Positions 9,030 to 39,300 of a stretch of 49,610 bases of DNA are shown here, piece by piece. The stretch is from a bacterium (lineage in GTDB: Bacteria; Margulisbacteria; Marinamargulisbacteria; JAHFDA01). The position numbers were made by a program, and so were the translations under genes. The notes beneath the pieces were generated by a model. It made no database searches. It was not told where the DNA came from and saw only the letters and a list, made by a program, of their open reading frames with translations. The stretch is from assembly GCA_023249225.1 (NCBI GenBank), contig JAHFDA010000016.1, positions 1-49,610 on the forward strand, written 5' to 3'. The number at the start of each line of letters is the position of its first letter. The first letter of the stretch is position 1.

Positions 9030-9067
9030 AGATTCCCTTATAGACAAAAATCCAAGGATCTATCGCA

Positions 9068-20897: not shown

Positions 20898-23261
20898 ATG
20901 CAATATGGCTATTTCGATGACGACCATGCCGAATACGTCATCACGCGACCCGACACACCCACGCCTTGGATCAATTACCTGGGCTTTGGCAAGTTTGGCA
21001 GCATCATCAGCCAGTGTGCCGGTGGTTACTGTTTTGATCGCGACCCCCGCAACCGGCGTGTCACCCGCTATCGTTACAACGCCGTGCCGGTGGACCAACC
21101 CGGACGCTACCTGTATTTACGCGACAAACACAGCGGCGCGTACTGGTCTGCCAGCTGGCAACCTGTTAAAGCGTCTTTGGATCATTTTGAGTGCCGCCAT
21201 GGCCTGGGCTATACCCGCATCCAAGCCCGCAAAAATGGCGTTGAATCTGAAGTTTGTTTTTTTGTGCCCGACGGCGCGGCAGCAGAACTATGGAACCTGA
21301 AACTGCGTTGTGACCGCCCATGTACACTGCAGGTTTTTACCTATGTAGAATTCTGCCACTACGATGCGGTACAGGATCAGGAAGATGTGGACTGGGTGCA
21401 ACAGATTGGCCAGGGACGTTTTAAAGACCAGACCATCTTGTTCTACAACCCCATGGAAAACGGCTTTAGTTATTTTTGGACCGACAGTCTGGTCAAAAGC
21501 TTTGACACCGGCCGCGACAATTTTGTGGGCCCTTACCGGGACCTGGGTAACCCGATTGCATTGGAACGCGGAACGTGCAGCAACCAGGAAACTTACCGCG
21601 GAAACACGGTGGGATGTTTTGAAATTGAAGTGAACTTGCTTCCCGGCCAGGACTGCGAAATCAATTTTATGTTAGGTGTGGAAGACAAAAAAACCACTAT
21701 TTCCAAAAGCATCCGCCGTTTTGGCAACCCCAAAGGCCGTACAGAGGCTTGGAAAGCGCTGAATGATTATTGGACCGGGTTTCGCAGCAATCAAATTGTG
21801 CATACGCCTGATGCGGACATGAACCGCATGCTGAACATTTGGAATCAATACCAGTGCAAATGCACCTTTAACTGGTCGCGCTTTGTGTCCTTGTATCAGC
21901 TGGGTATCCGCCGCGGCATGGGTACCCGCGACAGCGCACAAGACTGCCTGGGTGTGATGCATACCATGGCCCCGGACACCCGGTTTTTAATGGTAAATTT
22001 ACTTAAATGCCAGTTCCCCGAAGGCGACGCCCACCACCAGTATTATCCGCTCACTGGCCAGGGCGATAGTCATGGTTATTCAGACGACCACCTGTGGATT
22101 ATTCTGTCGGTATGCCAATATCTTAAAGAAACCGGTGACTTTAGCTTTTTAAAGGAAAAAATCACTTATGCCAAACGACCCCCTGATGCCACGCTTAAGG
22201 GTGTCCCCAGAGGCAAAAAGACCAGCGACACCGTGCTGGGTCATCTGGAGCAGGCCATTGCATTTTCATTGAAGAATGTAGGCCCCCACGGTATTACCAA
22301 GGCTGGTTTTGCCGATTGGAACGACACCATTAACTTAGATCAGGGCAAAGGCAAGGCCGAATCGGTGTTTTCGGCCATGTTGCTTGGGGCCGTTATTTTA
22401 GAACTCATCGGTTTATATGAATTTATCAAAAAATCCAGGCAAGCTTCCGCCCTGCGCGCGCAGCATCGTAAATTATCGGCCACCATCAACAAACACTGCT
22501 GGGACGGAGCCTGGTACGTGCGCGCCTGGGATGATACCGGCCGCGTGCTGGGGTCTAAGAAATCAGAAAAAGGAAAAATTTTTATCAACACCCAAAGTTG
22601 GGCTGTGTTGGGTGCCACAGCCTCCACAGAACGCGGTCGCCAGGCTTTGCAATCGGCCCATGACCAGTGCAATACCCAGGAAGGCGTCCTGCTGTGTTAC
22701 CCAAGTTATACCGAATTCGACCCAAGCAAAGGCGGCGTCAGCACCTACCCGCCCGGGGCAAAAGAAAACGGCGGAATCTTTTTACACAGCAACCCCTGGC
22801 TCATGATCGCCCATACCCAATTGGGAGATGGTGACCGGGCTTACCAGTATTACCGGCAAATTCTCCCCTGCCACCGCAACGCCGACCGCTACGAAGTAGA
22901 GCCCTACGTGTATTGCCAAAATATCCTGGGCAAGGAACATCCGCAACACGGTCTGGGACGCAACAGCTGGCTAACGGGCACCGCCGCCTGGAACTACGTG
23001 GCCGCCACCCAGTACATCCTTGGCATTCGCCCGGGCTATGCTGGCTTGCAAGTAAAGCCGGTGCTTCCGAGCGCCTGGAACGGTTTTGACATTGAACGCG
23101 TCTATCGCGGCACCCGCTATGTGATTTCGGTCCGCAAACCGGCCGGAAAGTCTGCCCAGCGTGTCGCCAATATGCGGGTAGACGGAAAGCTTATTTCGGG
23201 CACAGTGATTCCGCCTTCTAAAAAGAAGCGCGTGCAGGTCGATGTGGATTTGGCAGAATAA
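20898..23261 (+). CDS. GH94 family disaccharide phosphorylase
   Basis: Inverting phosphorylase of 787 residues that splits a beta-linked glucose or GlcNAc disaccharide with phosphate (cellobiose or N,N'-diacetylchitobiose phosphorylase group). The N-terminal beta-sandwich (1-260) and the alpha/alpha barrel are both present. Motifs: GIRRGMGTRDSAQD (R344, D345), GDSHGYSDDHLW (D397, D398) and GFADWNDTINL with D473 as the likely general acid by analogy to the family. The length is normal. Exact substrate specificity cannot be read by eye. GGCAGG precedes the ATG. No sugar transporter or partner enzyme is nearby. Confidence 0.9.
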   Translation: MQYGYFDDDHAEYVITRPDTPTPWINYLGFGKFGSIISQCAGGYCFDRDPRNRRVTRYRYNAVPVDQPGRYLYLRDKHSGAYWSASWQPVKASLDHFECRHGLGYTRIQARKNGVESEVCFFVPDGAAAELWNLKLRCDRPCTLQVFTYVEFCHYDAVQDQEDVDWVQQIGQGRFKDQTILFYNPMENGFSYFWTDSLVKSFDTGRDNFVGPYRDLGNPIALERGTCSNQETYRGNTVGCFEIEVNLLPGQDCEINFMLGVEDKKTTISKSIRRFGNPKGRTEAWKALNDYWTGFRSNQIVHTPDADMNRMLNIWNQYQCKCTFNWSRFVSLYQLGIRRGMGTRDSAQDCLGVMHTMAPDTRFLMVNLLKCQFPEGDAHHQYYPLTGQGDSHGYSDDHLWIILSVCQYLKETGDFSFLKEKITYAKRPPDATLKGVPRGKKTSDTVLGHLEQAIAFSLKNVGPHGITKAGFADWNDTINLDQGKGKAESVFSAMLLGAVILELIGLYEFIKKSRQASALRAQHRKLSATINKHCWDGAWYVRAWDDTGRVLGSKKSEKGKIFINTQSWAVLGATASTERGRQALQSAHDQCNTQEGVLLCYPSYTEFDPSKGGVSTYPPGAKENGGIFLHSNPWLMIAHTQLGDGDRAYQYYRQILPCHRNADRYEVEPYVYCQNILGKEHPQHGLGRNSWLTGTAAWNYVAATQYILGIRPGYAGLQVKPVLPSAWNGFDIERVYRGTRYVISVRKPAGKSAQRVANMRVDGKLISGTVIPPSKKKRVQVDVDLAE

Positions 23262-23267
23262 AGGGGC

Positions 23268-24113
23268 TTATTGAACCGGCTGCTGCGTGGCTTGATTCAT
23301 TTCTTTTAAAAGCCGTAAATCACGGTTACGGTATTTAAGGCTGCGCTCCAGCTTGAGACGCTCTTTGGCCTTTTGCAGGGCGAAAATAAGTTCATCAAGG
23401 TCGATGGGTTTTTTAAGGTAGTCGCAGGCCCCGCCACGCAGCGCCTCGATGGCCACATTTTGATCTCCGTGTCCGGTGACCAAAATCACCTCGACATCGG
23501 CATTCGTGCGCTTAACCTTGTACAGCACTTCCATACCACTCATGCCCGGCATTTTGATATCGGTTACAATGATGTCGATCTTTTCACGGTCAAATATTTT
23601 TATGCCGTCTTCGCCATTTCCGGCCGTCACGACCGAATACCCCTCGTCCTCAAGTAAACGTTGCAGAAACTGACGCTGGGTATCCTCGTCGTCGAGCAGC
23701 AAGACCCGATAGGACGGAAAAAAATTCTTACGGACAGCGCGCCGTTCACGAAAACGGCCAATGGCTCCCAGGAGGTCGTCAATGTCGATCGGTTTTTTAA
23801 GATAGTCGAACGCATTGCTACGTAAGGCATCGATGGCCATATCGTAGTCGCCGTAAGCGGTGACCATAATCACTTCCACGCCGGGACGCATTTCTTTGAT
23901 GTTTCTTAATATGCTCATTCCGTCCATGCCCGGCATTTTGATGTCAGTTAACACCAGCTCGATATTGGCATCTTCGCGCAGCTTTGCCAGACCCTCGGTG
24001 CCACTGTGAACTTCGACAACCTCGAAGCCATCTTTTTCAAGGATGTTACGCAGAGCCCCTACCGTGCCCGGGTCGTCGTCTATGATCAGTATTTTACTTG
24101 TTGCTTCAACCAT
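23268..24113 (-). CDS. Double receiver-domain response regulator without output domain
   Basis: 281 residues: two complete receiver domains and a short C-terminal helix. REC1 (about 6-122) has acidic residues at 12-14, phospho-Asp D57 (LVLTDIKMPG), T85 and K106/K107. REC2 (about 135-250) has D141/D142, D185 (IIVTDIKMPG), T213 and K234/K235. Both look phosphorylatable. The tail (about 250-275) is helical and charged. There is no DNA-binding or enzymatic domain, so it probably acts as a phosphoacceptor or through protein contacts. It is the last gene of the operon, 12 nt behind the histidine kinase. Confidence 0.93.
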   Translation of the reverse strand: MVEATSKILIIDDDPGTVGALRNILEKDGFEVVEVHSGTEGLAKLREDANIELVLTDIKMPGMDGMSILRNIKEMRPGVEVIMVTAYGDYDMAIDALRSNAFDYLKKPIDIDDLLGAIGRFRERRAVRKNFFPSYRVLLLDDEDTQRQFLQRLLEDEGYSVVTAGNGEDGIKIFDREKIDIIVTDIKMPGMSGMEVLYKVKRTNADVEVILVTGHGDQNVAIEALRGGACDYLKKPIDLDELIFALQKAKERLKLERSLKYRNRDLRLLKEMNQATQQPVQ

Positions 24114-24125
24114 ACGTTTATCCTG

Positions 24126-24914
24126 CTATTTTTTATTGTAAGTCTTGATAGGGAGCTGTATCAAGAAGGTAGTTCCCACCCCCTCCTGGACTTTAAACGT
24201 CAGGCTGCCCCCATTGCTCTTGACAATGCCCCAACTGGCCGAAAGACCCATGCCGGTGCCTTTATCCACCGCTTTTGTAGAAAAAAAGGGTTGAAAAATT
24301 TTTTCCCGTATGGGGGCCGGAATCCCCCCCCCGGTATCCTCGACTTCGACCTGAATATGCTCCGCCACAGCCCGCGTTCGTAAAACCAGCCGTTTGACCG
24401 GAACCTTGTTCTCCAGCAGGGCATCCTTGGCGTTATGAAAGAGATTGAGAAATACCTGTTCCATCTGGGAACGGTTGATGAAAACCTGGGGCAAGTCGGG
24501 CGCATATTCTTTTTGGATGTCAATTTGTTCAAAGCGCAGGAGGGCAGCAATAAACTCGAGCGCACCGTCAATCACCCCATGAATGTCGGTGGGCTCGGGC
24601 GGATCCTGAACCTTTTGCACCGAAAACTGCCGCAGGTGTTCGATGGTGGTGCTCATCCGGTTAATTTGGGCAATCATGATGTCAAGTTCTTCATGCAGTT
24701 TGGGCAAATCCAAGGCCCGTTGTTTTTTGATATTGCGGATGACAGACTGCGCAATTACCTTGATGTTATTGAGTGGTTGATTTAATTCATGCGCCAGACC
24801 GGTGGCCATTTCTCCCAGAGTAGTCAGTTTGGCGGTATGTAAAAACTGGGCCTGGCTTGCAGCGGATTGCGGGCTGTGCGTTTGTTCCAGGGCCTGTTCA
24901 ATGGGTGGCTTCAT
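24126..24914 (-). CDS. Soluble histidine kinase without sensor domain
   Basis: 262 residues from the ATG at 24914, which is preceded by GAGGAG inside the end of the upstream kinase gene and overlaps that gene by 17 nt; a longer reading to 24932 has no such site. Order: short N-terminal region, HisKA with H42 (ATGLAHELNQPLNN), then HATPase_c with N161 (FHNAKDAL), DTGGGI (193-198), PFFSTK and GTGMGLS (219-225). No transmembrane segment or PAS domain, so it needs a partner to sense anything. The HELNQPLNN type of H-box matches the upstream membrane kinase (HEINQPLNF), suggesting that the two arose from related sequences. Confidence 0.93.
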   Translation of the reverse strand: MKPPIEQALEQTHSPQSAASQAQFLHTAKLTTLGEMATGLAHELNQPLNNIKVIAQSVIRNIKKQRALDLPKLHEELDIMIAQINRMSTTIEHLRQFSVQKVQDPPEPTDIHGVIDGALEFIAALLRFEQIDIQKEYAPDLPQVFINRSQMEQVFLNLFHNAKDALLENKVPVKRLVLRTRAVAEHIQVEVEDTGGGIPAPIREKIFQPFFSTKAVDKGTGMGLSASWGIVKSNGGSLTFKVQEGVGTTFLIQLPIKTYNKK

Positions 24915-26673
24915 AGACCCGCTCCTCGGCATGCATCTGCCGCGACATCCTGGTCAGCATATTTACGTCGGAATCAGCTTTAGGCATCACTTTAAACGCC
25001 ACCACAAACACGGTGCCCACGCCGATCTGGGTTCGGAATGAAATCTGGCCGCCAAAATCTTCGATGATTTTTTTAACAATGCCCATCCCAAGGCCAGTGC
25101 CCTTGTCGGCAGTCTTGGTGGTAAAAAAGGCGTCAAAAATGCGTGGCTGCACATCTTCGGGTATGCCACAGCCATTGTCTTCAATTTCGGTATACGCCCA
25201 TTCTTCCTTTTGGTATACACGCACGGTAATCTGTCCGTGTCCTTTAGCGCTGCGTTCATCGATGGCATCGCGGGCATTGCTCAATAAATTGACAAACACC
25301 TGCTGCAAGCGGTTGACGCCCGCCATAATGGGCCCGGTGCTGGGGTCAAATTCCTTGACCACTTTAATCTGGTGCATGCGCAGCTGTTCGCCCACCAGCT
25401 TAAGTACACCGTCGAGCGCTTCGCTTAGCACCATGGGTTCACGGGTAGAGCGGTCTGATTTACGGCTGAATTTGCGCATTTCGTTCACCAGATCGGCCAG
25501 GCGCACCACGTAGTTTTCCACCTCGATCATGTCGTTGGGCAAATCTTCAAATTTATAACGGCCTTTAGAAATATTGCGGCGTATGCCCTGGGACATGATC
25601 TTTAAAAAATTAAGCGGCTGGTTAATTTCATGGATCAGCCCGGCCGCCATTTCGCCGATGCTGGCCAGTTTTTCTGATTGCACCAGCTGGGTGTCTTTGG
25701 CTTCGATTTCACGTTTAAAACTGGCTTGCAATTGTTCACTCTTGCGACTGATGGTGGTCTGGGCTTCGCGCAAGCGATCGACCATGCGTTTAAAAGCATT
25801 CTGCAGATCGACCAGTTCATCTCCTTCGCCCAGTTCTTCGGTCGAAGACAGATCACCCTCGGCCACTTTTTGAATGCGTTGGGATAAAAGTTCGATGGGC
25901 TTAAACAGGTGCCACAGCGAAAACCATATCCCCACTGCAAAGCTCAATAAAAAACTGACGACAATAAAGACGGCCAAGACCTGCGTGGTGCGCTCTTGAT
26001 GTTCTTTAAGCGTGGCGATGGCTTGTGAAACTTCTAAGGTGACTGTCTCACTAAGCTTGACCAAAGCCGTTTCAAGCTTGCCTTCGGATACATCGAGCGC
26101 CGCGCGTCCCGCCGCATCAGGCCGCTCGAAGTATTGCGCCGCTAAAAGCTGATAATGGTTATAGAGCACATCGGCCTCTGCCGCAGTATGTGAAACCCGA
26201 TGCCATGATTTGTCTATCTTAAGCGTTTTGTCGTAACCCAGGTCATGCCAAATGCGATAGTAACGCCCGTCCTCAAGCATGCGAAAGGCCTGGGTTTCAC
26301 TGCCCCATACCAGTGTTTTTAAAAAAGTCTGCAGGCGTTCTCCATGGGCTATAAATTCTTTTTGGCGGGTGGGGTTGGCACCCTGTTGCAGCACTTGTTC
26401 CACGGCATGGCGTTGCGAAGCCCTTTCGAGTTCAACCACATCGGCCACCTTGATGATGGGCAGGCTACGGTCTACGGCGGTCTCCATCAGTATCCGAATC
26501 GAAGATACGGTGTAAAGACTGTAAATGCCAAGTACAAGCACAAAAGTGGCGTTAAAAAAAAGCAACGTTAAGATTTTAAGCAGCAGCGATGTGGACGATT
26601 TGGGAACAATCAGCCTGGCACCGGTCGGGCGCGGCAATAACAGCCATTTACGTACTTGTGTTTCTTCGGCCAT
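24898..26673 (-). CDS. Membrane histidine kinase with HAMP domain
   Basis: 591 residues. TM1 (about 30-55), a periplasmic helical sensor of about 175 residues (56-230), TM2 (about 231-255), HAMP (254-307), then a coiled coil. HisKA has H348 (AGLIHEINQPLNFLK); HATPase_c has N466 (LLSNARDAID), DNGCGI (499-504), FFTTK (516-520) and GTGLGMGI (525-532). All catalytic motifs are intact. The ligand of the sensor is unknown; the helical type resembles four-helix-bundle sensors. ATG start at 26673 with a GGAG about 13 nt before. It overlaps the next kinase by 17 nt and lies 26 nt after the membrane stalk protein gene. Confidence 0.93.
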   Translation of the reverse strand: MAEETQVRKWLLLPRPTGARLIVPKSSTSLLLKILTLLFFNATFVLVLGIYSLYTVSSIRILMETAVDRSLPIIKVADVVELERASQRHAVEQVLQQGANPTRQKEFIAHGERLQTFLKTLVWGSETQAFRMLEDGRYYRIWHDLGYDKTLKIDKSWHRVSHTAAEADVLYNHYQLLAAQYFERPDAAGRAALDVSEGKLETALVKLSETVTLEVSQAIATLKEHQERTTQVLAVFIVVSFLLSFAVGIWFSLWHLFKPIELLSQRIQKVAEGDLSSTEELGEGDELVDLQNAFKRMVDRLREAQTTISRKSEQLQASFKREIEAKDTQLVQSEKLASIGEMAAGLIHEINQPLNFLKIMSQGIRRNISKGRYKFEDLPNDMIEVENYVVRLADLVNEMRKFSRKSDRSTREPMVLSEALDGVLKLVGEQLRMHQIKVVKEFDPSTGPIMAGVNRLQQVFVNLLSNARDAIDERSAKGHGQITVRVYQKEEWAYTEIEDNGCGIPEDVQPRIFDAFFTTKTADKGTGLGMGIVKKIIEDFGGQISFRTQIGVGTVFVVAFKVMPKADSDVNMLTRMSRQMHAEERVYEATH

Positions 26674-26699
26674 GGCCCGTGATACTCCAGGCGCGCCTG

Positions 26700-29201
26700 T
26701 TAGCTGCCCTGAAATTGCAGGGGACCAAAACTTTCGGTTCCCAGGTGCACTTCAACCTGGTCTTTGTTGACCAGGCGCACCGAAGCCAGCGGACCACCGG
26801 GCACAATCGGAAAACCGTTGATGGACACCACACATTCACCCTTGGGCTTGACACGGCATTCGCCATATTTACCTGGATAAACATAGCTCACCACCCGGCC
26901 AAAACCGCCCAGCCCCAGGCCGCCATCACGCTTTAAAGTCACTGGCAACTGTGAGCCCCACAAAAATTGGCGTGGCCGCAGCATATGCGGGGTTTGACCC
27001 ACCACCAGGGATGAACGCGGAAAGAATTTGGGTAAACGGCTTAAACGATAGATGAGTCCCACAATGAGCAGGACAATCACGCCCGGCAGGGTAAAGAAAA
27101 AGGCCAGCGTCGAAAGCAAGAGCTGCACAGTCCAGCCCATCAGCCAAAACACATTTTTCAGGCCGCCACGCACCGCCGATACGGACTGGCCTATTTCGGG
27201 CGCTGGAACTTCTACAATCACAGCTTCTTTTTTAGGCGCTGCTTGAACCTGTACTGGTGGAAGCGCCTCCATCACCGTAAGCGGCACTTCCTTGGGCGGG
27301 GCCAAAACAACGCCTTGGGCATCGGTCATGGCTGCTGCCGGTTTTTCGCTGCTGGGGGGCGCAGCCAGATTGAGTGCTAACTTGGGTTCACGTTCATTTT
27401 CAAGCGCAATAGTCTGTTGACTTGACTGGGCTGCCAGGCCAAGCAAGGCCGATTCGGCTTCAGCCGAAGTTGCTGTATCCTTTTTGGCCGCTTTAAGCGT
27501 TGCGGCCTGCAATTTACTTTCTTCAGCCTTTTGAGTGGCTTCAGCTAATTTTGCTTCTTCTGCCAATTTAGCCGTAGCCAGTTTGGCTTCTTCGGCTTGT
27601 TTGGCTTCAGCTAATTTTGCCTCTTCAGCCGCTTTAGATACCGCCGCCATACGGGCCATCGCTTCTTTGGCGGCAGTGATTCTGGCTTCTTCGGCTTTCT
27701 TTGTTTCGGCCAGTTTGGCCGCCGCTGCCGTTGCTTTTTGAGCTTCGGCAAGCTTGGCTTGTTCTGCTGCGGCTGCGATAGCCAAACGTGCTTCCTCGGC
27801 TTTTTTAGCTTCCGCCGCTAACCTGGCCTCTTCGGCTTTTTTGGCCTCGGCCTGTTTGACCGCCTCTACCTTTTGGGCTTCGACGAGCCTTGCGTCTTGA
27901 GCCAATGCCAATGCAATCGGATCTGCTTCTGTCACCGTCTTTTTAGCATCCACCAGCGCTGCCGCGGGGACCACGCCCTCTGGCTTAGGCGCTCCCATCA
28001 TTTTAGCCATCATGTCTGCCAACGATGGGGCCGGAGGAGCGGCTTTGGGTGTTTCAGCAAGGGGTGCTGTTTCCACTGCCTTAGCAGTCGTCAATTTGGC
28101 CGCCTCGGCCTTTTGAGCTTCGGCAAGTTTGGCTTCTTCAGCTTTTTTGGCTTCGGCTAATTTTGCTTCTGCAGCAGCCAACTTTGCGTCTTCAAGTTTT
28201 TTTGCTTCAGCTAATTTGGCCGCCTCGGCTTTTTGGGCTTCTTCAGCCGCCGCCTTGGCAAAGGGATCTTCTGCCACTGCTGGCTTTTGAACTTCAGCCG
28301 CCTTCACTGCATCTGGCTTGGGAGCCCCAGCCATCATCTTGGCCATCATATCCGACAACGAGGGAGCTGCCTTGGGCATTTCGGCCACTTTGGCCAGCTC
28401 GGCTTTTGGGGGTTCAGCGGTTTTTGGAGTTTCGGCTTGCGCTTTTACGGCAGGCGCCTCGACCTCTGCTTGAGGCGCTTCAGCTTGCGCGGCTACCGCA
28501 GCCACAGGCGCAGCCGGATTACGCAATTTGGCCAGCGTCGAAGCATCCAGAACACCACTTAAGCTGCCCTTGGCCCGGCCAAGATTAATTTCCTGAAAAC
28601 GGGCAATAGCATCGGCCATGACTTGATTGTATTGGCCCGGCTCAAGCTGGCTTTTAAGTACCAATGGCGCACCCGCCGCATCTTTGGCTTTTAATAACAG
28701 GTTTTGAAGTTCGGTAACCATTTCGGCCGGGTATAGATCGGCCGCATGCGGGTCAAAAACCACCGTGCCTTTTTCAATATCGCCCCAATCGATGGCATCG
28801 TCTACCATGCTCCATGCAAAATCATTGTCCTGGATAAGGGCGTAAGCAATGATCATTTTGGCCGTATCGGCGTCGACCACTCCCAGATTAACCGTCTTGT
28901 CTGGCAAAAAGTATTTTTGTACCCGTTCCACTGCCGAACGCATTCCGTAGTTATATACGCCGGGCTTTAACTCGGTCAGCCGCACCAACGGTTTTTCGCT
29001 GCCATCCTTTAAAGCCAGCATCATCATTTGAATCTGACGCACCGTATCACCATCAAAACGGTTATCAATCGCCAGCTTACCGTCAACCACCTGGCGGATT
29101 TCTTCTTTAACCGCAAATTCGTCGGCATCGCCCGGCACAGGCAGCAGCAATGCCGCCATCACCATGAAAGCCAGTATTTTTCTGATCTGAAAGTTACGCA
29201 T
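26700..29201 (-). CDS. Large membrane protein with Lys/Ala/Glu-rich stalk
   Basis: 833 residues. A signal peptide or N-terminal anchor (1-26, VMAALLLPVPGDA) is followed by two related modules (about 80-120 and 187-226). They share an L.PG.YN..M..A..R.Q....G.LDA.T pattern reminiscent of peptidoglycan-binding type 1 domains (moderate confidence). A TolA-like EAKKAEEAKLAEA-type stalk of about 340 residues comes next, then a strongly hydrophobic region (about 684-720) and a beta-rich C-terminal domain (724-833) that could be FHA-like (VSINGFPIVPGGPL, VNKDQVEVHLG). Topology is open: one long or two membrane passes. The start overlaps the end of the tubulin-like gene by 8 nt. Function unknown; it likely links the cell wall to the cytoplasmic partners. 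Confidence 0.82.
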   Translation of the reverse strand: MRNFQIRKILAFMVMAALLLPVPGDADEFAVKEEIRQVVDGKLAIDNRFDGDTVRQIQMMMLALKDGSEKPLVRLTELKPGVYNYGMRSAVERVQKYFLPDKTVNLGVVDADTAKMIIAYALIQDNDFAWSMVDDAIDWGDIEKGTVVFDPHAADLYPAEMVTELQNLLLKAKDAAGAPLVLKSQLEPGQYNQVMADAIARFQEINLGRAKGSLSGVLDASTLAKLRNPAAPVAAVAAQAEAPQAEVEAPAVKAQAETPKTAEPPKAELAKVAEMPKAAPSLSDMMAKMMAGAPKPDAVKAAEVQKPAVAEDPFAKAAAEEAQKAEAAKLAEAKKLEDAKLAAAEAKLAEAKKAEEAKLAEAQKAEAAKLTTAKAVETAPLAETPKAAPPAPSLADMMAKMMGAPKPEGVVPAAALVDAKKTVTEADPIALALAQDARLVEAQKVEAVKQAEAKKAEEARLAAEAKKAEEARLAIAAAAEQAKLAEAQKATAAAAKLAETKKAEEARITAAKEAMARMAAVSKAAEEAKLAEAKQAEEAKLATAKLAEEAKLAEATQKAEESKLQAATLKAAKKDTATSAEAESALLGLAAQSSQQTIALENEREPKLALNLAAPPSSEKPAAAMTDAQGVVLAPPKEVPLTVMEALPPVQVQAAPKKEAVIVEVPAPEIGQSVSAVRGGLKNVFWLMGWTVQLLLSTLAFFFTLPGVIVLLIVGLIYRLSRLPKFFPRSSLVVGQTPHMLRPRQFLWGSQLPVTLKRDGGLGLGGFGRVVSYVYPGKYGECRVKPKGECVVSINGFPIVPGGPLASVRLVNKDQVEVHLGTESFGPLQFQGS
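27460..28470 (-). repeat. Low-complexity coding repeat (Lys/Ala/Glu stalk)
   Basis: The part of the membrane protein gene coding for its stalk is built of irregular near-copies of a motif for AEAKKAEEAKLA with varying linkers. It also contains two copies of a Pro-rich SLADMMAKMMG-type segment. Such DNA is prone to length variation by slippage or recombination. Confidence 0.75.
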
Positions 29202-31725
29202 GGGTCACCGACTTTCTTTGATTCATAAAATTTTGGATATTTTCAACTTCTTTTTGAATTTGTTCACGCACCGGCGCGGGCATAAGGTCGTCGGACGACA
29301 GGCGTTTTTGCATGTCCTGGCAATACTGCTCAAGATAAATCAGGGTATCTGACTCATTCTCTCCCAGCCGTGCCTCAAGTTCCTGCTGCACCAGCGCCAG
29401 AAAATTACGTTCCTTGGCAAAGGCTTTTAAGGCATCGGTGCGATAACAACCCAGCTCCACATCTTGATCACCCTGCCAATGCCAGGTAGGCAGTTCTTTT
29501 TTATTGATCTTTCCAAACGCCACGCCCAGAGCAAAATAAAGCGGGGCCTCGTCGAAGATGTCCGGAAATAAATCGGCCATATAGACCCGTTCGAATTCAT
29601 TGACAAAGAAGGGCAAACGGTCATCGAGCCGTGCCAGGGCACCTTTCATCTGATCGATTTGTTGCGGAATCTGGTGCAAGGCAAAATCGTACTGCACGCG
29701 CAACACATGCAGGGCTCCCATGTCATCGCTGGGCACTGTCCAGATTTGCTCCTTGCCACCCGCTTTTTGCGCTTTGCTTAGAAAAAGTTTATGTCCACCC
29801 AGCACCAGCAAGCCTTGACCGGCTTTAAGACCTAAAGGTACCGTAAAGGCACCCTTTACTTTTTCAAGATCCAGCTCGGTCATGGCAACAATTTGCTCTA
29901 AGAAGCCCCGCAGGTTGGCGCGCAAACCCGCTACCATGCTGTCGGCATACTGAATGGCATCGTAATATTCGAGACCATACCATTGACCCACTTCGCCCTT
30001 GACGGCCTGAATACGCGTATCCAGATCGTTGCCCAGTTCGGAACGCAGCAGCGCATCGGCCGTCAGCATCTTGAACACAAAATTCGGGTTTGCCTTTAAC
30101 TCGCCGTCGAGCCGGTCGCCCTCGCGCTTGAGGCGATCCTTAAGTCCGTTAAGCGTGCCCAGAAAAACCCCAAAATGCGTTTTTTCAATGTCTACGATAC
30201 GGGCCAGCTGTTCATAAAATACAATCGTGGCTTCGTCGATGATGACGCGCTCGTCGGCCAGTATTTTTCGACCGGTACGGGTCAGCACATCCTGAACATA
30301 GGCCGGGTGGGCCAGCCAAGGTACCCAGGTATATTTGGTCTGAAACGGAATGGCAAAGATGGCCTCATATTGCTGGTCGGCCTGTTCTTTGAGCTTTACG
30401 TTTTTAGCCATTTGAGACAGGGCTTCTTGTTTGCGTTTTTCACAGGCCTCTTTAAGCTTGGCCATAAACTGCTCAATATCCGGCAATGGCAGGCGTTTTT
30501 CAGCAATACATAAATTGACCCGTTCGCTAAGACGCCCAGAGAACAATACCGAAAGTTTTTCGAGCACCTGTTCTACGTTGCGGCGATGATCGCGCGCCAC
30601 CTGGTCGGCGTAACCCGGCAGGGCCTGCAACTTTTCGCGCACGGGATGGCCCAAGGTCACGCGGTCAGCAAATTCTTCTAAAAACTGCTGACGGGCAGGC
30701 GGGAGTATCCGGCGCTGGGTCTCTTCGCTTAACTTCAGCGTATCCAGCACCTGCTCAATTTCTTTGTCGACCGTGGTGCTGGCCGTTTGAAACATAAAAA
30801 AGCCCTTGTCCACGACCGTAAACGCCAGGCGCGCCGCAAGCATTTCAAGTAGTTTGTCCCACGGCAGCGCAAACCGCTTGAGTGAATAAGCCCCATAACG
30901 GGTTGAACGCTTGACCGGAGTCGCACCTGCCTGCATAAAACGCGGCAAGATATGTTCGTCTTCAAACGCAAAGCGCTTGCGAAAAACGATTTTTTCAGCA
31001 GTGGCTTCAATGTGCCCCTGAAAAGAATTGACATCGTTCTGTTCAAGGTAGACAAAATCAAAGGGAGCCTTGCGCACCTGAACGCTGCCCATCAGGTATT
31101 TGGCCTGATATTGCTGGTTCCGCATGGCATGTTCAATTTCGCACAAGGAGGCGTAGGCGTTTCCGACACCCCGGTCATCTGCCGCTGCCTGGGGAGGCAA
31201 ACTTAAGTAAGCCACCATACGCAGCGGGCGTTCTGTTCCCACCGCCGCATGAATAAGGTAGGCCACATCAAGCAACAAGGCGCTGCCCGTGTTTCCACAC
31301 AGCGAAGACACCAAAATGACTTCGAGCATATCGTCAATGTCCTTGTGACCGCGATGATCGTTAATCAGTTCCTGCACCTTGCTGATCAAAACCTGGCTGA
31401 TCTGTTTAAAATTCCAATACAGATGCATGCGTGTCTGCGCTCGGCTAGGGTAGCGCTGAAACATCTCTTGATTAATATCTGATCTGATCCATGCTTTAAG
31501 TTCCGGCCGCTGCAAACCCAGATCACGCATTTTAGACAGTGAAACCATTTGGCTGGGATGCAGACCTGGAACCGTTTCGGGCTTGTCCTGCTCAAGGTCA
31601 AGGGCTGTAACCGTACGCAGCAATCCTTCTGGCGCCGGATCACGCCGTGACACGGTCACCAAGGTTTGAGCACCCATGTTTCCCAGTCCGATTAACCATT
31701 GTTGCCGTTTACCTGTATTGCGCAT
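29194..31725 (-). CDS. Tubulin/FtsZ-like GTPase superfamily protein
   Basis: 843 residues, far larger than FtsZ (about 350-400). The N-terminus has a Rossmann start WLIGLGNMGAQTL (nucleotide loop 13-18). About 130 residues later VILVSSLCGNTGSALLLDVAYL (signature 144-149) corresponds to the GGGTGSG loop of tubulins. NAYASLCEIEHAM near 189-201 is typical of the large bacterial tubulin-like family. The signature is degenerate (GNTGSA instead of GGTGSG), so nucleotide hydrolysis may be weak or lost. The rest is mostly helical with a coiled-coil stretch (about 400-460) and no known domain. GGGTGAG precedes the ATG. It follows the pseudo-receiver gene by 17 nt. Confidence 0.85.
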   Translation of the reverse strand: MRNTGKRQQWLIGLGNMGAQTLVTVSRRDPAPEGLLRTVTALDLEQDKPETVPGLHPSQMVSLSKMRDLGLQRPELKAWIRSDINQEMFQRYPSRAQTRMHLYWNFKQISQVLISKVQELINDHRGHKDIDDMLEVILVSSLCGNTGSALLLDVAYLIHAAVGTERPLRMVAYLSLPPQAAADDRGVGNAYASLCEIEHAMRNQQYQAKYLMGSVQVRKAPFDFVYLEQNDVNSFQGHIEATAEKIVFRKRFAFEDEHILPRFMQAGATPVKRSTRYGAYSLKRFALPWDKLLEMLAARLAFTVVDKGFFMFQTASTTVDKEIEQVLDTLKLSEETQRRILPPARQQFLEEFADRVTLGHPVREKLQALPGYADQVARDHRRNVEQVLEKLSVLFSGRLSERVNLCIAEKRLPLPDIEQFMAKLKEACEKRKQEALSQMAKNVKLKEQADQQYEAIFAIPFQTKYTWVPWLAHPAYVQDVLTRTGRKILADERVIIDEATIVFYEQLARIVDIEKTHFGVFLGTLNGLKDRLKREGDRLDGELKANPNFVFKMLTADALLRSELGNDLDTRIQAVKGEVGQWYGLEYYDAIQYADSMVAGLRANLRGFLEQIVAMTELDLEKVKGAFTVPLGLKAGQGLLVLGGHKLFLSKAQKAGGKEQIWTVPSDDMGALHVLRVQYDFALHQIPQQIDQMKGALARLDDRLPFFVNEFERVYMADLFPDIFDEAPLYFALGVAFGKINKKELPTWHWQGDQDVELGCYRTDALKAFAKERNFLALVQQELEARLGENESDTLIYLEQYCQDMQKRLSSDDLMPAPVREQIQKEVENIQNFMNQRKSVTHA

Positions 31726-31742
31726 GTGCTCACCCGCCTTTC

Positions 31743-33053
31743 TTAATAAATACTTACGTTATCGTTGACGCGTACCAGGCGCCGGTATATTTCCGACGCC
31801 GGCGCGCCCTGCTTGGCCAGTTCAAAATGGCACGCCAGATTAAGCACTTTAATCTGGTTAAGCGCCACCGTCTCTTCGGAGATTAGATTAAAATAGCCAC
31901 GTGCGGCTTCGCTTTCGCCACGGTGTAAAAAATATTCCGCAAGCGTAATCCAAAATTCGTCCTTGCCAGCGCAAGCCTGTGGCTCCGAGGCAAGAAAGCG
32001 AGCCACTTCTGAGGTTCCACCAAACAAAATGTGTAGGCGCAAATACAATTCTGGAAAGCGTTGTTCCTTGAAGCATTGTTCAAGCAACTGAACCAGCAAA
32101 TGGGCTGCTTTGGCATATTCACCGACCGAATGCCAAGCCTTGAGCAACTTATAAGACTCGTCCAAACTCAATTTAACGTGCAGGTTTAAGGCCTCAAACA
32201 CAGACGCCATACCCCGAAAGTCTCCGGAACTTTCGTAAAAGTCTGCCAGCTGCAGCCCCAGCTTACGGCGCGCCGCCATGTCATTTTGTTTAACGGCAAT
32301 CTCAATCAGCTGTTCATAAGCTTTAGGTTTCCACGCCAGGTCTTTTTGGGCCAAAGTCTGAAGCAGCTGTTTGGCCACTTCCCACTGCCCCATCGAGACG
32401 CAAGCCAGTGCTCCATCCCACAATTCGGCCGGCTCCACACCTGCCAGCATGTCCAGTTGACGGATGTTATCCACCAACAACTGGGCCAGCCGCACTGAGC
32501 CCGGATCCGCCTTTAACTGGCCCAAAATCATGGGGTGGACATCGCGACGCAAACTGACCGATCTTGGGTGCAACAAAAGCAGATGCTCCACCTGATCTGC
32601 AAAAGTGTCTCCTGAAAATTGGGACACATTGTGTTTGAATTCTGAAAAAAGGCGATTCGCCCGCGCAATCAGTGCATGCCGCAATTGTTCAGAAAAGATG
32701 TCGGTGCGGGGACGCTGTGCATCCAAAATGCTTTGCACCCGCGCCTCACGGGCCACCACCGGACGCGTCGTTTCGATGGCATGCGAAAACAAAATCACCG
32801 GTGTTTGATCGGGCAAGTTCTGCCAGAATGCGCTCTGCACAAGCATGCGTGCATCAATCGAAACCGCCACGGCGTCACATTCCAGATCTACCAGAGCCTC
32901 ATGGGCTGTTTCTGCGTCTGGGCACTCGACGGGAACAAAGCCGGGAAAATCTCGCGAAATGACCCCGCGTACCACCCGCGCCCAGTTATTATCGTTTCCG
33001 ACAATAAGCAACACGCGTTTTAGAACTTGTCGCGTAACGGTTTGTAGACTCAT
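31743..33053 (-). CDS. Pseudo-receiver protein with helical (TPR-like) repeats
   Basis: 436 residues. The N-terminal part (about 12-125) folds like a receiver (VLLIVGNDN, then CDAVAVSIDARM, then TPVILFSHA), but the expected phospho-Asp after the third strand is Ser (S65 by alignment), so it is probably not phosphorylated. The rest is a series of paired helices of TPR type (for example DFYESSGDFRGMASVFEALN and AEYFLHRGESEAARGYFNLI), suited to protein binding. The start ATG at 33053 has AGAGGA in front. It is the first gene of the operon with the tubulin-like protein, and 29 nt separate it from a divergent sensor gene. Confidence 0.82.
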   Translation of the reverse strand: MSLQTVTRQVLKRVLLIVGNDNNWARVVRGVISRDFPGFVPVECPDAETAHEALVDLECDAVAVSIDARMLVQSAFWQNLPDQTPVILFSHAIETTRPVVAREARVQSILDAQRPRTDIFSEQLRHALIARANRLFSEFKHNVSQFSGDTFADQVEHLLLLHPRSVSLRRDVHPMILGQLKADPGSVRLAQLLVDNIRQLDMLAGVEPAELWDGALACVSMGQWEVAKQLLQTLAQKDLAWKPKAYEQLIEIAVKQNDMAARRKLGLQLADFYESSGDFRGMASVFEALNLHVKLSLDESYKLLKAWHSVGEYAKAAHLLVQLLEQCFKEQRFPELYLRLHILFGGTSEVARFLASEPQACAGKDEFWITLAEYFLHRGESEAARGYFNLISEETVALNQIKVLNLACHFELAKQGAPASEIYRRLVRVNDNVSIY

Positions 33054-33082: not shown

Positions 33083-33736
33083 ATGAGACGCGTCCCTTTT
33101 GTCTATCTCATCACTGCTGCGGTATCTATTTCCACCTTGATCCTAGGTTCGTACTTTATTCAAAAAGAACTGCGCCTAAAACAAGATGCCCTGCTATTCC
33201 GTGCCCAGTTTTTAATTACCCAATTCACCGGACAAGTCAGCTATGCCATTGCCCAAAGCAACGCCCAGCAGCTTGAACAAATTGGAAAAGTCTTTATTCA
33301 AGATCCAGACCTTGCATTGCTTACGGTGGTTAATTCCCGTGGGCAATTGCTCTTAAACCTTGAAAAAAATCGAAAAACCGGTCAGATTTATGAACTAGAA
33401 GAAAAAGGGCTGTTAAAAGCCTTAAGTAAGCACAAATTAGACACCCCTTATTATTTTTATTCCCAGCTATCCCAAAATAAACACTTATTTTTAGCCACCC
33501 GGCTTTCGAGCTACTGGAGCAACCTGTTTCAAAAGGAATACCACGTAGAGTTAAAGGAAAAAGCCACCGAACATTCTGAAGATTTTGGCTATGTGGTCAT
33601 GGGTTTTGACTTGGAAAACTTCAATAAAGGCCAAATAACCAACGCAGCCGCCAATTTCTTTATTATTTTATTTGCAATCACGTTCAATCTTTTGCTGGCG
33701 CTTAAGTACCAAAGCCAACAGGATCAAAAAGGTTAG
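33083..33736 (+). CDS. Two-TM membrane protein with a Cache-like extracytoplasmic domain
   Basis: 217 residues: TM1 (about 6-27), an extracytoplasmic domain of about 160 residues with a PAS/Cache-like core (LALLTVVNSRGQLLLNLEK), and TM2 (about 188-207) followed by a short tail (KYQSQQDQKG). It has the shape of a sensor input domain but no kinase, methyl-accepting or cyclase output. It may pass its signal to one of the neighbouring kinases; this is inference. The gene is visibly richer in A+T than its neighbours. It starts 29 nt from the divergent operon, so the promoters of both units overlap. Confidence 0.72.
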   Translation: MRRVPFVYLITAAVSISTLILGSYFIQKELRLKQDALLFRAQFLITQFTGQVSYAIAQSNAQQLEQIGKVFIQDPDLALLTVVNSRGQLLLNLEKNRKTGQIYELEEKGLLKALSKHKLDTPYYFYSQLSQNKHLFLATRLSSYWSNLFQKEYHVELKEKATEHSEDFGYVVMGFDLENFNKGQITNAAANFFIILFAITFNLLLALKYQSQQDQKG

Positions 33737-33761: not shown

Positions 33762-35039
33762 TTAGCTGTGTACCACCCACCAAGCCTCGGCATAAGACCG
33801 AAAATGTTTGCCCATTTCAAGCATACCCAGTAAAGCAGCTGTAATGGCCATCCCATCGTGGGTACCGCGGCCACGCAACAACAACTCTTTGTAAATTTTT
33901 TCAAAATCAGGGTTTTTGACACTCCCTTGGATGCTTAAAATAGCCGCCGCCAAGGCCGTTGCATCGTAAGACCCCCGACGTTCTTTGATAGCGCTCACCT
34001 GCGCAAAATGAGTGCCAAATGCAGTCAAGGCAGCTGCTCCGCCCAGCGTCAAAACAGCCGCCGTAATATTATCTCCGTCTTCGGTGCCAATCTGCTGCTT
34101 AACTTCAAGAACGCTCTGCTTGGCAGCCTGAAATTGTTTGGCAGGACCAGAGCCCTGGGTTGCTAAAATGGCAGCCGCCAGCACCAAACCATCGTAACTA
34201 CCTTCTTTGGCGGGTAGCTGCTCAAAAGTCTGATCCAAAAATGTTTGCAAGGCCTGCTCGCCCGCAGAAGCCAGAATGGCCGCCGCAACACCGTGCCCGT
34301 CGGCCGAACCCATGCGCTGTTTGGCCGCCAGCACCACATCAAAAAAACGCGGAAAGCATTCCAAGGCCTGCTGGCCACCCACCGCAACCAAGGCTGCGGT
34401 CACCAGATCTCCCCCGTCGCTGCCTTCTTTGCGCTTACAGTTCATCACCACCGATACAGCAGCATCCAAACGTCCCAGCGCCTCCACTCCCCCCTGCAGC
34501 ACGGTGGCTGCCGCAATAAACATGCTGTCATCTGGCGCATGCCGCCCCGCCAACCACTGCGCTTTTTGCAGCGCCGGTTCGTAGGCCTCGCGCAGCGACC
34601 CGAAGGACAAGCCCTTATCCCACGAAGCGTCCGTTAAAAATCGATCCAGAATTTTTTTGTTCTGTTGTTGCAGATGCCGGGCGTGGATGCCCCGCTGAAT
34701 GACTTCGAGCAGTTCTTCGAGCTTAAAAGGCTTGACTAAAAAATCAAAGGCACCAAATTTAATGGCCTCCAATGTATTTTTGGTAGAAGGATAAGCCGAT
34801 GCCAAAACCACGCAGACATCCGGCTGAAGCTGTTTGGCCTGTTGAAGCACATCCGTGCCAGAAATACCGGGCATTTTATAGTCAGAGATCAGCACATCCA
34901 CCGATTGCTGCCGCAACACGGCCAAGCCTTCTTCACCCGACCGGGCTGGAATCACCCGGTAACCCCGCCGACTCAAGATGGCAGTGATCGAGTTAAGAAA
35001 GTCTTCCTCGTCATCAATATACAAAATGGTCTCGCTCAT
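33762..35039 (-). CDS. Receiver domain fused to seven copies of an unknown repeat
   Basis: 425 residues. The receiver (about 3-120) has D9/D10, phospho-Asp D53 (VLISDYKMPG), S81 and K103, all intact. From residue 168 to the end, seven tandem repeats of 36-39 residues (the last 33) follow: 168-206, 207-244, 245-280, 281-318, 319-356, 357-392 and 393-425. The consensus starts S-x-D-G, then (I/L/V)-(A/T)-A-A-(I/L)-L, then a helix with F and a K-x-x-x-G end. The alpha-helical pattern suggests a solenoid, but I know no named family for it. No DNA-binding domain. It lies 15 nt downstream of a receiver-histidine kinase gene. Confidence 0.85.
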   Translation of the reverse strand: MSETILYIDDEEDFLNSITAILSRRGYRVIPARSGEEGLAVLRQQSVDVLISDYKMPGISGTDVLQQAKQLQPDVCVVLASAYPSTKNTLEAIKFGAFDFLVKPFKLEELLEVIQRGIHARHLQQQNKKILDRFLTDASWDKGLSFGSLREAYEPALQKAQWLAGRHAPDDSMFIAAATVLQGGVEALGRLDAAVSVVMNCKRKEGSDGGDLVTAALVAVGGQQALECFPRFFDVVLAAKQRMGSADGHGVAAAILASAGEQALQTFLDQTFEQLPAKEGSYDGLVLAAAILATQGSGPAKQFQAAKQSVLEVKQQIGTEDGDNITAAVLTLGGAAALTAFGTHFAQVSAIKERRGSYDATALAAAILSIQGSVKNPDFEKIYKELLLRGRGTHDGMAITAALLGMLEMGKHFRSYAEAWWVVHS

Positions 35040-35054
35040 GGCCGCCCTGCTGAT

Positions 35055-36257
35055 TTATATCTTTACGGTTTGCGGGGCGCTTGGCAACCATAACGTAAAC
35101 GTGGCACCTTGGCCTGCTTCGCTGGCCACGTCGATGCGCCCACCCGCCCGCGCCAGCGCCACATAAGCCAGCGAAAGCCCCAGACCTGTACCCTGTCCCG
35201 GCGCCTTGGTGGTAAAAAAAGGGTTGAAAATATCTTTCATGTGTTGCGGCATAATACCCGGACCGCTGTCGCTCACGCTGATAAACACTGCGCCTGCACT
35301 GCTGCCAACTTCCACATTAAGACGTCGGTCTTTCTGCGGCGCCAACGCTTGAACCGCATTAAGCATGATGTTAAGCAAAGCCTGTTTTAAGCTGTCCGGA
35401 TCGGCCTTGATGGGCGGAAGCGCATCTTGAAACTTGGCAGAAAACATAATGCCATGCGTCTTGATCTCATGTTCAAGCAACTGCTGGGTCAGCGTGACCA
35501 AATTGCGCACGTCGATGATTTCAGTGCCTTCGCTGCCATAACGGCTAAAGTCAAGCAACTGCTGGATAATCTTTTTAGCTCGCTGCACCTGCCGGTCAAT
35601 GCGTTCCAGACCCGCTGCCAATTCTGGAGAGGCCCCTGTGCCCAATCGATCCTGAAGATCCAGGCGTGAATTTTCGATAATCCCAAGCGGATTACGCAGT
35701 TCATGGGCCACGCCCGCCAGCATCTGGCCCACCGCTGCCATTTTTTCCTGACGGATCAGCATATCCTGATGCTTGTGCAGGTTATCCAGGGCTTGTTGCA
35801 ATTCACGAGTGCGCTCCTGCACCCTGGCTTCAAGGTCCTGGTTGGCCTGTTTAAGACTTTCGAGCAAACGTTGCCGCTCCACTACCATGGTCTGCTTCTC
35901 AAGCGCACGGTCGATCAGGTGGTCGATCTGGGCCGTACCTTCAAAAGGTTTGGTGACCACTTCATAGGCCTCGACCCGCACCGCATCCATGACGGCATCC
36001 AAGGTGGCGTAGGCGGTCATGAGCACCACCTCGCAGTGAAAAGGCATTGCTTTAACAGCTCGCAGCACTTCGATACCGCTGATCCCCGGCATCTTTAAGT
36101 CGCTGATGACAACGTGGGGTTGTTCTGTGCGCGCCAACTCAATACCGCTTTCGCCGTCGGGCGCTGTCAGCAAGGTCTCTTCACGAAAACGAAAAAGGGT
36201 CTCAAAAATACGGCGGATGGATGTCTCGTCGTCAATGACGAGCACTTTGGTAGTCAT
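35055..36257 (-). CDS. Receiver-histidine kinase hybrid (cytosolic)
   Basis: 400 residues with the receiver at the N-terminus: D9/D10, phospho-Asp D53 (VVISDLKMPG), T81, K103. A coiled coil (about 125-165) leads into HisKA with H185 (LAGVAHELRNPLGII) and HATPase_c with N300, DSGPGI (330-335), FFTTK (347-351) and GQGTGLGLS. No transmembrane segment. REC-first kinases of this type usually receive phosphate from another kinase or link two pathways. The ATG at 36257 lacks an obvious ribosome-binding site. It probably forms a pair with the downstream receiver-repeat protein and follows the giant gene after 76 nt. Confidence 0.93.
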   Translation of the reverse strand: MTTKVLVIDDETSIRRIFETLFRFREETLLTAPDGESGIELARTEQPHVVISDLKMPGISGIEVLRAVKAMPFHCEVVLMTAYATLDAVMDAVRVEAYEVVTKPFEGTAQIDHLIDRALEKQTMVVERQRLLESLKQANQDLEARVQERTRELQQALDNLHKHQDMLIRQEKMAAVGQMLAGVAHELRNPLGIIENSRLDLQDRLGTGASPELAAGLERIDRQVQRAKKIIQQLLDFSRYGSEGTEIIDVRNLVTLTQQLLEHEIKTHGIMFSAKFQDALPPIKADPDSLKQALLNIMLNAVQALAPQKDRRLNVEVGSSAGAVFISVSDSGPGIMPQHMKDIFNPFFTTKAPGQGTGLGLSLAYVALARAGGRIDVASEAGQGATFTLWLPSAPQTVKI

Positions 36258-36333: not shown

Positions 36334-39300
36334 TTAGTGCACCACACCAATCAGGCGCACCTTCTTGTTGTCTTCACCACTCACTGCGGCCTGAATCACA
36401 CAGATATAACCACCCTTGGCCACGTTGACGCCAATATCGTTTTTACCATCCCACTTGACTTCATTGGTACCGGCCCGGCCACCCGCGATGCCTGAATCGA
36501 TTTCTTTTTTCCATACCTTGTGACCAAACGGATCGTAGATGGTAATGGTGATGGCCGTGTCCTGGTTAAGGAAGTACGTCAGTGTGGTGTCTTCTTTACG
36601 GCTGTCGAAAGGATTCGGATAGTTGCTAACGTTGGAGATCACCTTGTTCGTTAAAATGCTGGTAACGCCATCGGGATGGGTGGCAAAACTGCTGTAGGCC
36701 AACGCACCGTTCTGTGAACGCATACGGTAGAAATAGGTTGTATCGGCCTGGCGTTCGGTCAAGGTTAAGGTAATCTGGCTCTGGACGATATCCTGGGTCA
36801 CCTCGCGTTCCACGGCCCACTTGGGATTGACGCCGGTACGGTATTGGATCTCGTAAGCCTGTACGTCTGACTCTGCGTCGGTAGACCGCAACCACGAAAT
36901 CACATGGGCCAGGTCAGTGGCCGCAGTGCCAATACCGGTTGTCTCGACTGTCTGGGCCGATATCTGCAAGATCTGCGGGGCCGAAGGTTCGGTAAGATCC
37001 GTATGGAAGGTATACACCGTTTCTTCACCCCAGAAACCATCGGATGACAGCGGCCAAATGGTGACATAGTAGGTGGTATGGTGCGACAGGCTCAAACGCG
37101 TCACCTGCAGCATATTAGATGATGCCTGCACCTGCATCTGGCCCTGGACATTATCAAGATACGGACTTGTGCCAATCATGTAATTGTAAGTAGCCACACG
37201 GTTGACCGCATCGCTGGTCACACGCAGGACAATTTGGATACTGTTGCTGATGTAATACGAATCCGCCGTGACCACGGTCTTATGTGGGCTACGATAGTCT
37301 ACCGCCAAAAGCGTGCTGGTGCTGATCGGAAGATCATCGGTTTCCATCTGGCACAGCGGATGAATATCTACAAAAGACAGCGTCGGAATGGCAAAGCCCA
37401 CGGTCTGGGACGGGATGGCATCGCGGTCGAGATCGGCCACCACAAAGTACAGGTTGGGCGTCACGCCAATACGCGGCACGATGTCAACGGTGGTGATATT
37501 GATGGTCACCGTATTGGCCGTAACAAAAGTGTCTGTTCCGGAACTCATCAGGTAATCGGTACTGGGATTAAACAGTTCGTCGCCCTGATCCTTGTATATC
37601 CGGATAGCCGATACCTGCGAGGTGGCTGCAGTCTCTAATTTGGTGAGCGCCAAGCCGTTAAAGGTGCCCGTGCGGTCGCCCAAGGTGCCCATGGTAAAGC
37701 GATAGAACACGTTATGGGTCGAGTTTTGGAAGATCACCTTGGTATCCAGCGTATTAATCAGCGAATAGAAGTTGGCAGACAGCACTTCTACCGCATCAAT
37801 GTTAAGCGTCACCGCCCCGTTAAAGGTGGTCGTATTGTTCAGGGCATTATCGGTAACGCTCACACTAAAGGTACCCACGCCATCACCGACGGTATGATCA
37901 ACGCTAAAGATACCGTACCAATTGCGGAAGGTCATATCGGCCGTCAGGGCAATGGTGGTGGTGTACAGATCAGCCGAAGCCACAAATTGCAGCAGCGGAC
38001 TGTTGCTAATCGCTTCGGAGACTTCGACTGTCACCTGGTACGAGCCCGCAATGGCCCGCGTGACGGTACCGTCAAAGCGGATGGTCTGCGATGGCGGCGT
38101 CATGTCAAGAATGATGCTCCTGGACACTGGGGATGCAAAATTGAAGCTGTCGTCTGCCAACCAGAAGTACAACCATAAGTCGCCTTCGGCTGTGCTGTTG
38201 GCAATGTTATATGTTTGTATCGCGCTGCTTTGCAGCAGGGTCGTCGGGATAGATCCAGTATTTTCGGTGACATAGTAGTACGCCACAAGGCCACCACCGA
38301 CATCTTCGCCCGTCAGGTTGATGCTGACCAGACGCGCGTTGGTGTATTCGGTATCGCCGCTCGACAGGTCGAGTACTTGCGCAGTAACAATATACGGCGC
38401 CCAAATATCCGAGCCTTCAATGTAAAAGACGTTCGGTGAGATCGGGTTTTCGGCCAGATCGACCACCGACAGATCTACTGTCACGGTGTAGGTCACTCTG
38501 TTTTGAGTAATGGTCTCCATCAGGTAGTTGACGTCCGATGTCAGATAACGGTCAATCGACACAATCGTGAGGCCCTGGTCGACCACATACAAATTAGTGG
38601 TGGCATTGAGCACTGGTTCGTTGAACTTAATGAGTATCTGGTTAAACGTGACGTGCTCGGCAATGGTCGGCAGGCGCGGCCCAGTCATGTCCAGAGTGAT
38701 CACCTGCGAGACGCTCACAGTCGATATATTGAGCTGATAGTCCATCATCCAGATGTTAATGGTCACACGGCCCTCGGACGCGGTAATGGCAAAGGTGGAC
38801 GGAGTGGCCGTGACGCTGAAATCACCCACCGCCGGCACCGTGGCATTTTCGGTAACCAGGTAATACGCCACACCATCGCCATCGTCGGTGGCCAGCATAT
38901 TGACGCTAACCACACGCTCGTTGGTATAGAGCTCGCTGCCGCTTGACGCGTCTTTAACATTGAAACTGTTGACCACGGGCGGTATCTCGTCGCGGCCATC
39001 GATATAGAACACGTTGGCTGTGACCGCATTACCAAAGGCATCGGTCACATCGTTGACGCTCACCGTGTATACGCGCGTACGCTGTGGAGAGGTCAACAAG
39101 ACAAAGTTGCGATTATCGGTGGTGGTGATATTCAAGAGCGTCAAGCCATCTGACAAGCCATAGTTGATCGTCAAAGTGGCCGCCGATGCCACCCATTCGC
39201 TGTAGCGGATCTGAACGGTATTAATTGACACACGGTCGGCCGTCACCGATAAGGTTGGGAACACCGTATCAATGGCCACATTGACACTGGTAAAGTTGCT

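Follow-up and report, generated by a model that had tools for sequence, protein, structure and literature searches.

Results and Discussion

Gene organization

A compact row of six genes occupies positions 23268-33053 on the minus strand of the window, the 49,610-nucleotide stretch of DNA that was analyzed (Table 1). From the start of the row to its end, the genes encode a TPR protein, a tubulin-like protein, a membrane protein here called the stalk protein, two histidine kinases (HK1 and HK2), and a double receiver. All six open reading frames of the initial annotation were confirmed at its coordinates, and its description of six leftward, tightly packed genes was borne out. The junctions, from the start of the row to its end, are +17, -8, +26, -17 or -35, and +12 nt, where the fourth value is set by the HK2 start that is chosen. 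This spacing makes it likely that the six genes are co-transcribed. A convergent glycoside hydrolase gene lies at the end of the row. Only 29 nt separate the start of the row from that of a divergent gene, so that a promoter does not fit neatly in between. A scan for promoter consensus sequences was uninformative, with 8 found and 11.1 expected.

Table 1. Features of the six-gene row and its surroundings (window coordinates)
Feature	Position	Strand	Description
TPR protein gene	31743-33053	-	436 aa, soluble
Tubulin-like gene	29194-31725	-	843 aa; Tubulin_2/FtsZl1
T1 loop (residues 13-18)	31672-31689	-	GLGNMG; consensus GLGGTG; G16->N (alignments)
T4 loop (residues 143-149)	31279-31299	-	CGNTGSA; consensus [CA]GGTG[SA]G; G145->N, G149->A (alignments)
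Stalk gene	26700-29201	-	833 aa, membrane
HK1 gene	24898-26673	-	membrane histidine kinase
HK2 gene	24126-24932 (alternative start 24914)	-	soluble histidine kinase
Double receiver gene	23268-24113	-	tandem receivers, no output domain
Ser/Thr protein kinase gene	7716-9047		about 14 kb past the row end
Glycoside hydrolase gene	20898-23261	+	convergent with the row
Divergent gene	33083-33736	+	small protein with two transmembrane segments
Upstream two-component genes	33762-36257	-	receiver-repeat protein and receiver-histidine kinase (Pfam)
Receiver-repeat protein	33762-35039	-	receiver fused to a C-terminal repeat array
Long open frame	36334-49584		4416 aa, repeated domains

The contig that holds the row, C82, belongs to a draft genome of 2.83 Mb, and the nearest relatives that were compared share only its class. 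Three Omp85 matches are encoded in the genome, so an outer membrane is likely. The G+C content is uniform across the six genes (0.50-0.54), and recent acquisition judged by base composition was rejected because there is no break within them. The divergent gene has a G+C content of 0.41 in a window of 0.53. The receiver-repeat protein upstream of the row ends in an array of repeats of about 37 residues (motif approximately DG..AAAIL) that belongs to no Pfam family. Farther upstream, the long open frame encodes an apparently cell-surface protein whose C-terminal end looks FlgD-like by eye.

The tubulin-like protein

Sequence comparison places the 843-aa protein in the FtsZl1 (Tubulin_2) family, as a full-length but highly divergent homolog. 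It matches Pfam Tubulin_2 (PF13809) with an E-value of 1.5e-22 and 80.8 bits (cut-off 27). A hidden Markov model of homologs, built without this protein, gives it a score of 153 bits and covers residues 11-572 and 655-835. This coverage, like an alignment that spans the entire protein, indicates homology to FtsZl1 over the full length. The protein consists of a tubulin-like domain (residues 1 to about 305), a coiled-coil or helical middle, and a C-terminal domain. An AlphaFold2 model made from an alignment of 24 sequences contains long helices and has a mean pLDDT of 71.5 and a pTM of 0.61. The best Foldseek matches in the PDB are TubZ and CetZ, both with probability 1.00 and with modest TM-scores (about 0.2 when normalized by query length and 0.35-0.44 when normalized by target length), and they correspond to the N-terminal domain. 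TubZ and CetZ, tubulin-family filaments of solved structure, have intact GTP-binding loops and are not known to carry a helical extension of about 500 residues, unlike the tubulin-like protein. A sequence search of the PDB with the tubulin profile gave nothing meaningful.

The FtsZl1 family was described in 2010 by Makarova & Koonin (PMC2875224). That paper and the Tubulin_2 match agree with the initial annotation, which had recognized a large bacterial tubulin-like family suspected of membrane remodeling. The open-access literature searched held no functional study of FtsZl1 tubulins. The protein resembles described FtsZl1 members (PMC2875224) in its full-length homology, its three-part architecture, the presence of a conventional FtsZ in the same genome, and a neighboring membrane protein or putative peptidoglycan (PG)-binding protein. 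The conventional FtsZ is encoded on another contig (PF00091, E=1.8e-51). Unlike those members, the protein has degenerate T1, T4, and GA..R..GRL motifs; its row has histidine kinases and receivers and lacks vWA, GTPase, and Ser/Thr kinase genes. The vWA gene is the usual though not universal FtsZl1 partner, and its absence from the row was determined with Pfam. Ser/Thr protein kinases are reported neighbors of FtsZl1 genes in other genomes (PMC2875224), and the window contains one such gene (Table 1). In a tree with its homologs the protein sits on the longest branch and groups with no sister at good support.

The degenerate nucleotide loops were missed by the initial annotation, as was the lack of the usual vWA partner, and the loops alter what control of assembly could mean. 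Besides the substitutions in T1 and T4 (Table 1), the GA..R..GRL motif is altered (G92Y, A93P, G98T), and the signature of T4 GGGTG(S/T)G plus T1 GxGGxG is absent. With the tubulin-like protein left out of the definition, conservation among 23 homologs reaches 90% or more in 41 columns. The protein departs from 19 of them, compared with 0-9 in the 23 relatives (0-2 in 20 of these, and 3, 5, and 9 in the other three); picking the homologs by conserved peptides and setting the columns without the protein both favor this contrast, yet the gap is large. In a relaxed motif census of 73 homologs, both motifs were missed only by the protein of the row, L062_2 (a badly called ORF), and L125_7. The tubulin-like protein may thus be a weakened GTPase or a pseudo-GTPase scaffold. 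Alternatively, the loop changes could reflect rapid evolution of a protein that has kept its ability to bind GTP. A member without these nucleotide-binding glycines but with the full architecture would allow scaffold function to be told apart from GTP-driven dynamics.

Divergence and altered N-terminal loops are also found in the second FtsZl1 paralogs of Chloroflexota and Acidobacteriota and in the two-tubulin loci of Firmicutes (PMC7159879). The second paralogs differ in that they adjoin a canonical copy and many of them have transmembrane segments, whereas the host of the row has a single Tubulin_2 gene. The tubulin-like protein scores 153 bits against a profile of the canonical copies and 9 against a profile of the second paralogs.

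The stalk protein and the TPR protein

The genes on either side of the tubulin-like gene encode a membrane protein and a soluble repeat protein. Hydropathy and Pfam place in the stalk protein a signal peptide, a PG-binding-like region, a transmembrane segment at residues 699-717, and a predicted cytoplasmic tail of about 115 aa. The signal peptide and the one transmembrane segment support its original designation as a membrane stalk. The match to PG_binding_1 (E=7e-4, 20.2 bits) is under the cut-off of 23, and a second PG-binding-like repeat can be seen by eye. A TolA-like region of about 400 aa is rich in Ala, Glu, and Lys (32% A, 14% E, 13% K). TolA-like envelope-spanning proteins have a long periplasmic Ala/Glu/Lys-rich region, as the stalk probably does. 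The order in the stalk is the opposite of theirs, with the signal peptide and PG-binding-like region first and the transmembrane segment near the C-terminus. A PDB sequence search with the stalk N-terminus returned nothing meaningful.

OmpA proteins or membrane vWA proteins recur as neighbors of FtsZl1 genes (also reported in PMC2875224), and the stalk suggests a specific way in which FtsZl1 proteins could be tied to the envelope. A tail shared by the stalk and the membrane proteins that accompany other FtsZl1 proteins was considered and rejected, as the whole set aligned over only 8 columns. Against two FHA-like tails, the stalk tail scored no better than shuffled sequences.

The label of pseudo-receiver and TPR protein given to the first gene of the row is supported in part. 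A TPR solenoid is supported by structure prediction: a single-sequence AlphaFold2 model contains a helical repeat at about residues 148-418 with pLDDT mostly 70-94, and its best Foldseek matches in the PDB are TPR proteins. Pfam TPR_14 falls just below its cut-off (E=1.4e-4, 22.6 bits, cut-off 23.5), and a PDB sequence search with the protein found nothing meaningful. The pseudo-receiver has no statistical support. Pfam PF00072 is silent on the protein, the N-terminal 130 aa or so are modeled as a low-confidence alpha/beta pattern with pLDDT mostly below 60, and hhalign aligns this region with receivers in register but insignificantly (probability 1.3%, E=0.04).

The two-component genes and conservation of the gene set

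In the last three genes of the row, duplication may have produced parallel pairs of kinase and receiver. HK1 has two transmembrane segments (hydropathy) and HAMP, HisKA, and HATPase_c domains (Pfam), with the H-box HEINQP, while HK2 has HisKA and HATPase_c (Pfam). The phospho-acceptor His of such kinases is present. The two are 34-35% identical, and each is the other's closest relative in the genome, closer than the upstream kinase. The double receiver contains two Response_reg stretches (Pfam), both full domains, which are 42% identical; D12, D13, D57, and K107 are invariant in the alignment of receivers (A9). The kinases are thus sisters and so are the receivers, suggesting a joint duplication. 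An HPt domain was not found in the row. Pfam confirms the initial observation that the kinases and receivers have no DNA-binding domain.

The tubulin-like gene and its five partners had been proposed to form one system. Among the distant homologs that were sampled, this proposal fails the refuting condition set for it: apart from two-component genes at one locus, they do not have these neighbors. The tubulin, stalk, and TPR genes are absent from every other one of the 74 phylum genomes scanned, and one relative there carries a pair of canonical FtsZl1 genes together with a vWA gene. No close ortholog of the tubulin-like protein was found in genome contigs scanned with this protein alone, viral contigs, the 74 phylum genomes, 396 Acidobacteriota, or plasmids. 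A contig scan recovered 60 homologous loci from many phyla; its conserved peptides were chosen on an alignment with two artificial extra rows, and every locus was confirmed by tblastn against the real tubulin-like protein. Further loci came from the Acidobacteriota search, and two loci from other genomes, with their flanks, were included. The neighborhood count covered the 66 loci in which a tubulin ORF could be called and the 405 ORFs within four genes of it. The homologs in this count are all distant, none exceeding 25% identity across the domain in the alignment used for the tree, and about half are from Caldilineaceae. Two-component genes occur in one of the 66 loci (2 of the 405 ORFs, both in L120), and BLAST found no match to the stalk or TPR protein among the 405 at 1e-3. 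In a Pfam annotation of 121 neighbors from 28 representative loci, vWA was present in 9, and the 25 most frequent families include neither a kinase nor a receiver family. An association of the tubulin with two-component genes is therefore not enriched among the sampled, distant homologs. No ortholog of the tubulin, stalk, or TPR gene turned up in the collections searched, so no conservation backs the set.

The exceptional locus (L120:3538-10672, genome G426) encodes a 1497-aa FtsZl1 protein, followed 224 nt downstream on the same strand by a GAF-PAS-HK-receiver hybrid and a lone receiver. The similar locus L122 lacks two-component genes at the corresponding place.

These counts make it a substantial possibility that the six genes are chance neighbors, a tubulin-TPR-stalk module beside an independent three-gene two-component system that regulates something else. 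The signaling genes would then perhaps work with the two upstream two-component genes, which lie within 3.5 kb in the same orientation. The genome has about 19 kinase matches. The gap of merely 26 nt between the stalk gene and HK1 argues against this explanation, as does the fact that HK1 and HK2 are nearest to each other and not to the upstream kinase.

The initial annotation had proposed phosphorylation-controlled assembly, which can be framed as phosphorelay-controlled polymerization: the N-terminus of the TPR protein would be a pseudo-receiver that reads the phosphorelay and gates assembly of the tubulin on the stalk. This model now appears unlikely. It draws on the operon-like gene order, on receivers that have no DNA-binding output alongside, and on the insignificant in-register alignment of the TPR N-terminus. 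The association is unconserved in the 66 loci, Pfam, hhalign, and the structural model leave the receiver fold of the TPR N-terminus unsupported, and the degenerate nucleotide loops do not fit ordinary GTP-driven polymerization. A variant in which the stalk anchors a pseudo-GTPase scaffold to the wall, and a dedicated relay of two kinases and two receivers switches assembly of the scaffold through proteins rather than through transcription, is quite improbable too. Direct phosphorylation control of assembly is speculation. If the signaling link is real, it would be a new way of controlling a tubulin-family protein.

Proposed function

Our tentatively preferred interpretation is that the row encodes a tubulin-like scaffold that is tethered to the membrane and makes weakened use of nucleotide. 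It would be connected to the wall through the stalk and to partners through the TPR protein, and would be distinct from the FtsZ of cell division. The stalk would span the inner membrane, with a periplasmic PG-binding-like region and a cytoplasmic tail, and it could tie the tubulin-like assembly to the wall in place of the usual membrane vWA protein. Nucleotide binding or hydrolysis by the tubulin would be weakened, making assembly dependent on partners, and the TPR protein may be an adaptor. The signaling genes are probably co-transcribed with the scaffold and would either act on it, for example through the TPR protein, or share only its operon and stimulus. What is new is an unreported gene context and degenerate loops in a member of a known family, in one genome. 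No described system with this gene set was found in the open-access literature; subscription papers were mostly outside the search.

A role in biological conflict has been proposed for tubulin-bearing loci of Firmicutes and Actinobacteria (PMC7159879), and on plasmids of Thermus and Meiothermus some relatives adjoin BrxL, HEPN, and DUF1156 genes. It is very unlikely that the row is part of such an anti-phage system. Tubulin-bearing conflict systems have linked GAP1/GTPase, vWA, or effector genes (PMC7159879), and in the row Pfam finds none for a GTPase, a vWA protein, or an effector. In addition, PADLOC matches it through generic receiver domains only, and the annotated surroundings are mostly housekeeping.

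Gene order at related loci

Several arrangements recur or stand out among the relatives. In Chloroflexota and Acidobacteriota, FtsZl1 often has a membrane vWA gene before it and a divergent Tubulin_2-like paralog after it. These second paralogs, many with transmembrane segments, match the HMM with E-values down to 1.5e-19, and the two genes are candidate pairs of canonical and degenerate tubulins. Loci with such pairs include L018:12277-15177, L070:12154-15195, L067:6459-9377, L016:5206-8418, and L040:6486-9677. On plasmids of Meiothermus, Thermus, and Allomeiothermus (L010, L011, and L012), triads of vWA, FtsZl1, and a hypothetical gene adjoin BrxL and further defense-type genes (Swt1-HEPN, DUF1156, and helicases). 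On a plasmid of Deinococcus sp. QL22 (L015:7565-15324), FtsZl1 is followed by MotA/TolQ/ExbB-type, OmpA-type, and leucine-rich-variant repeat genes.
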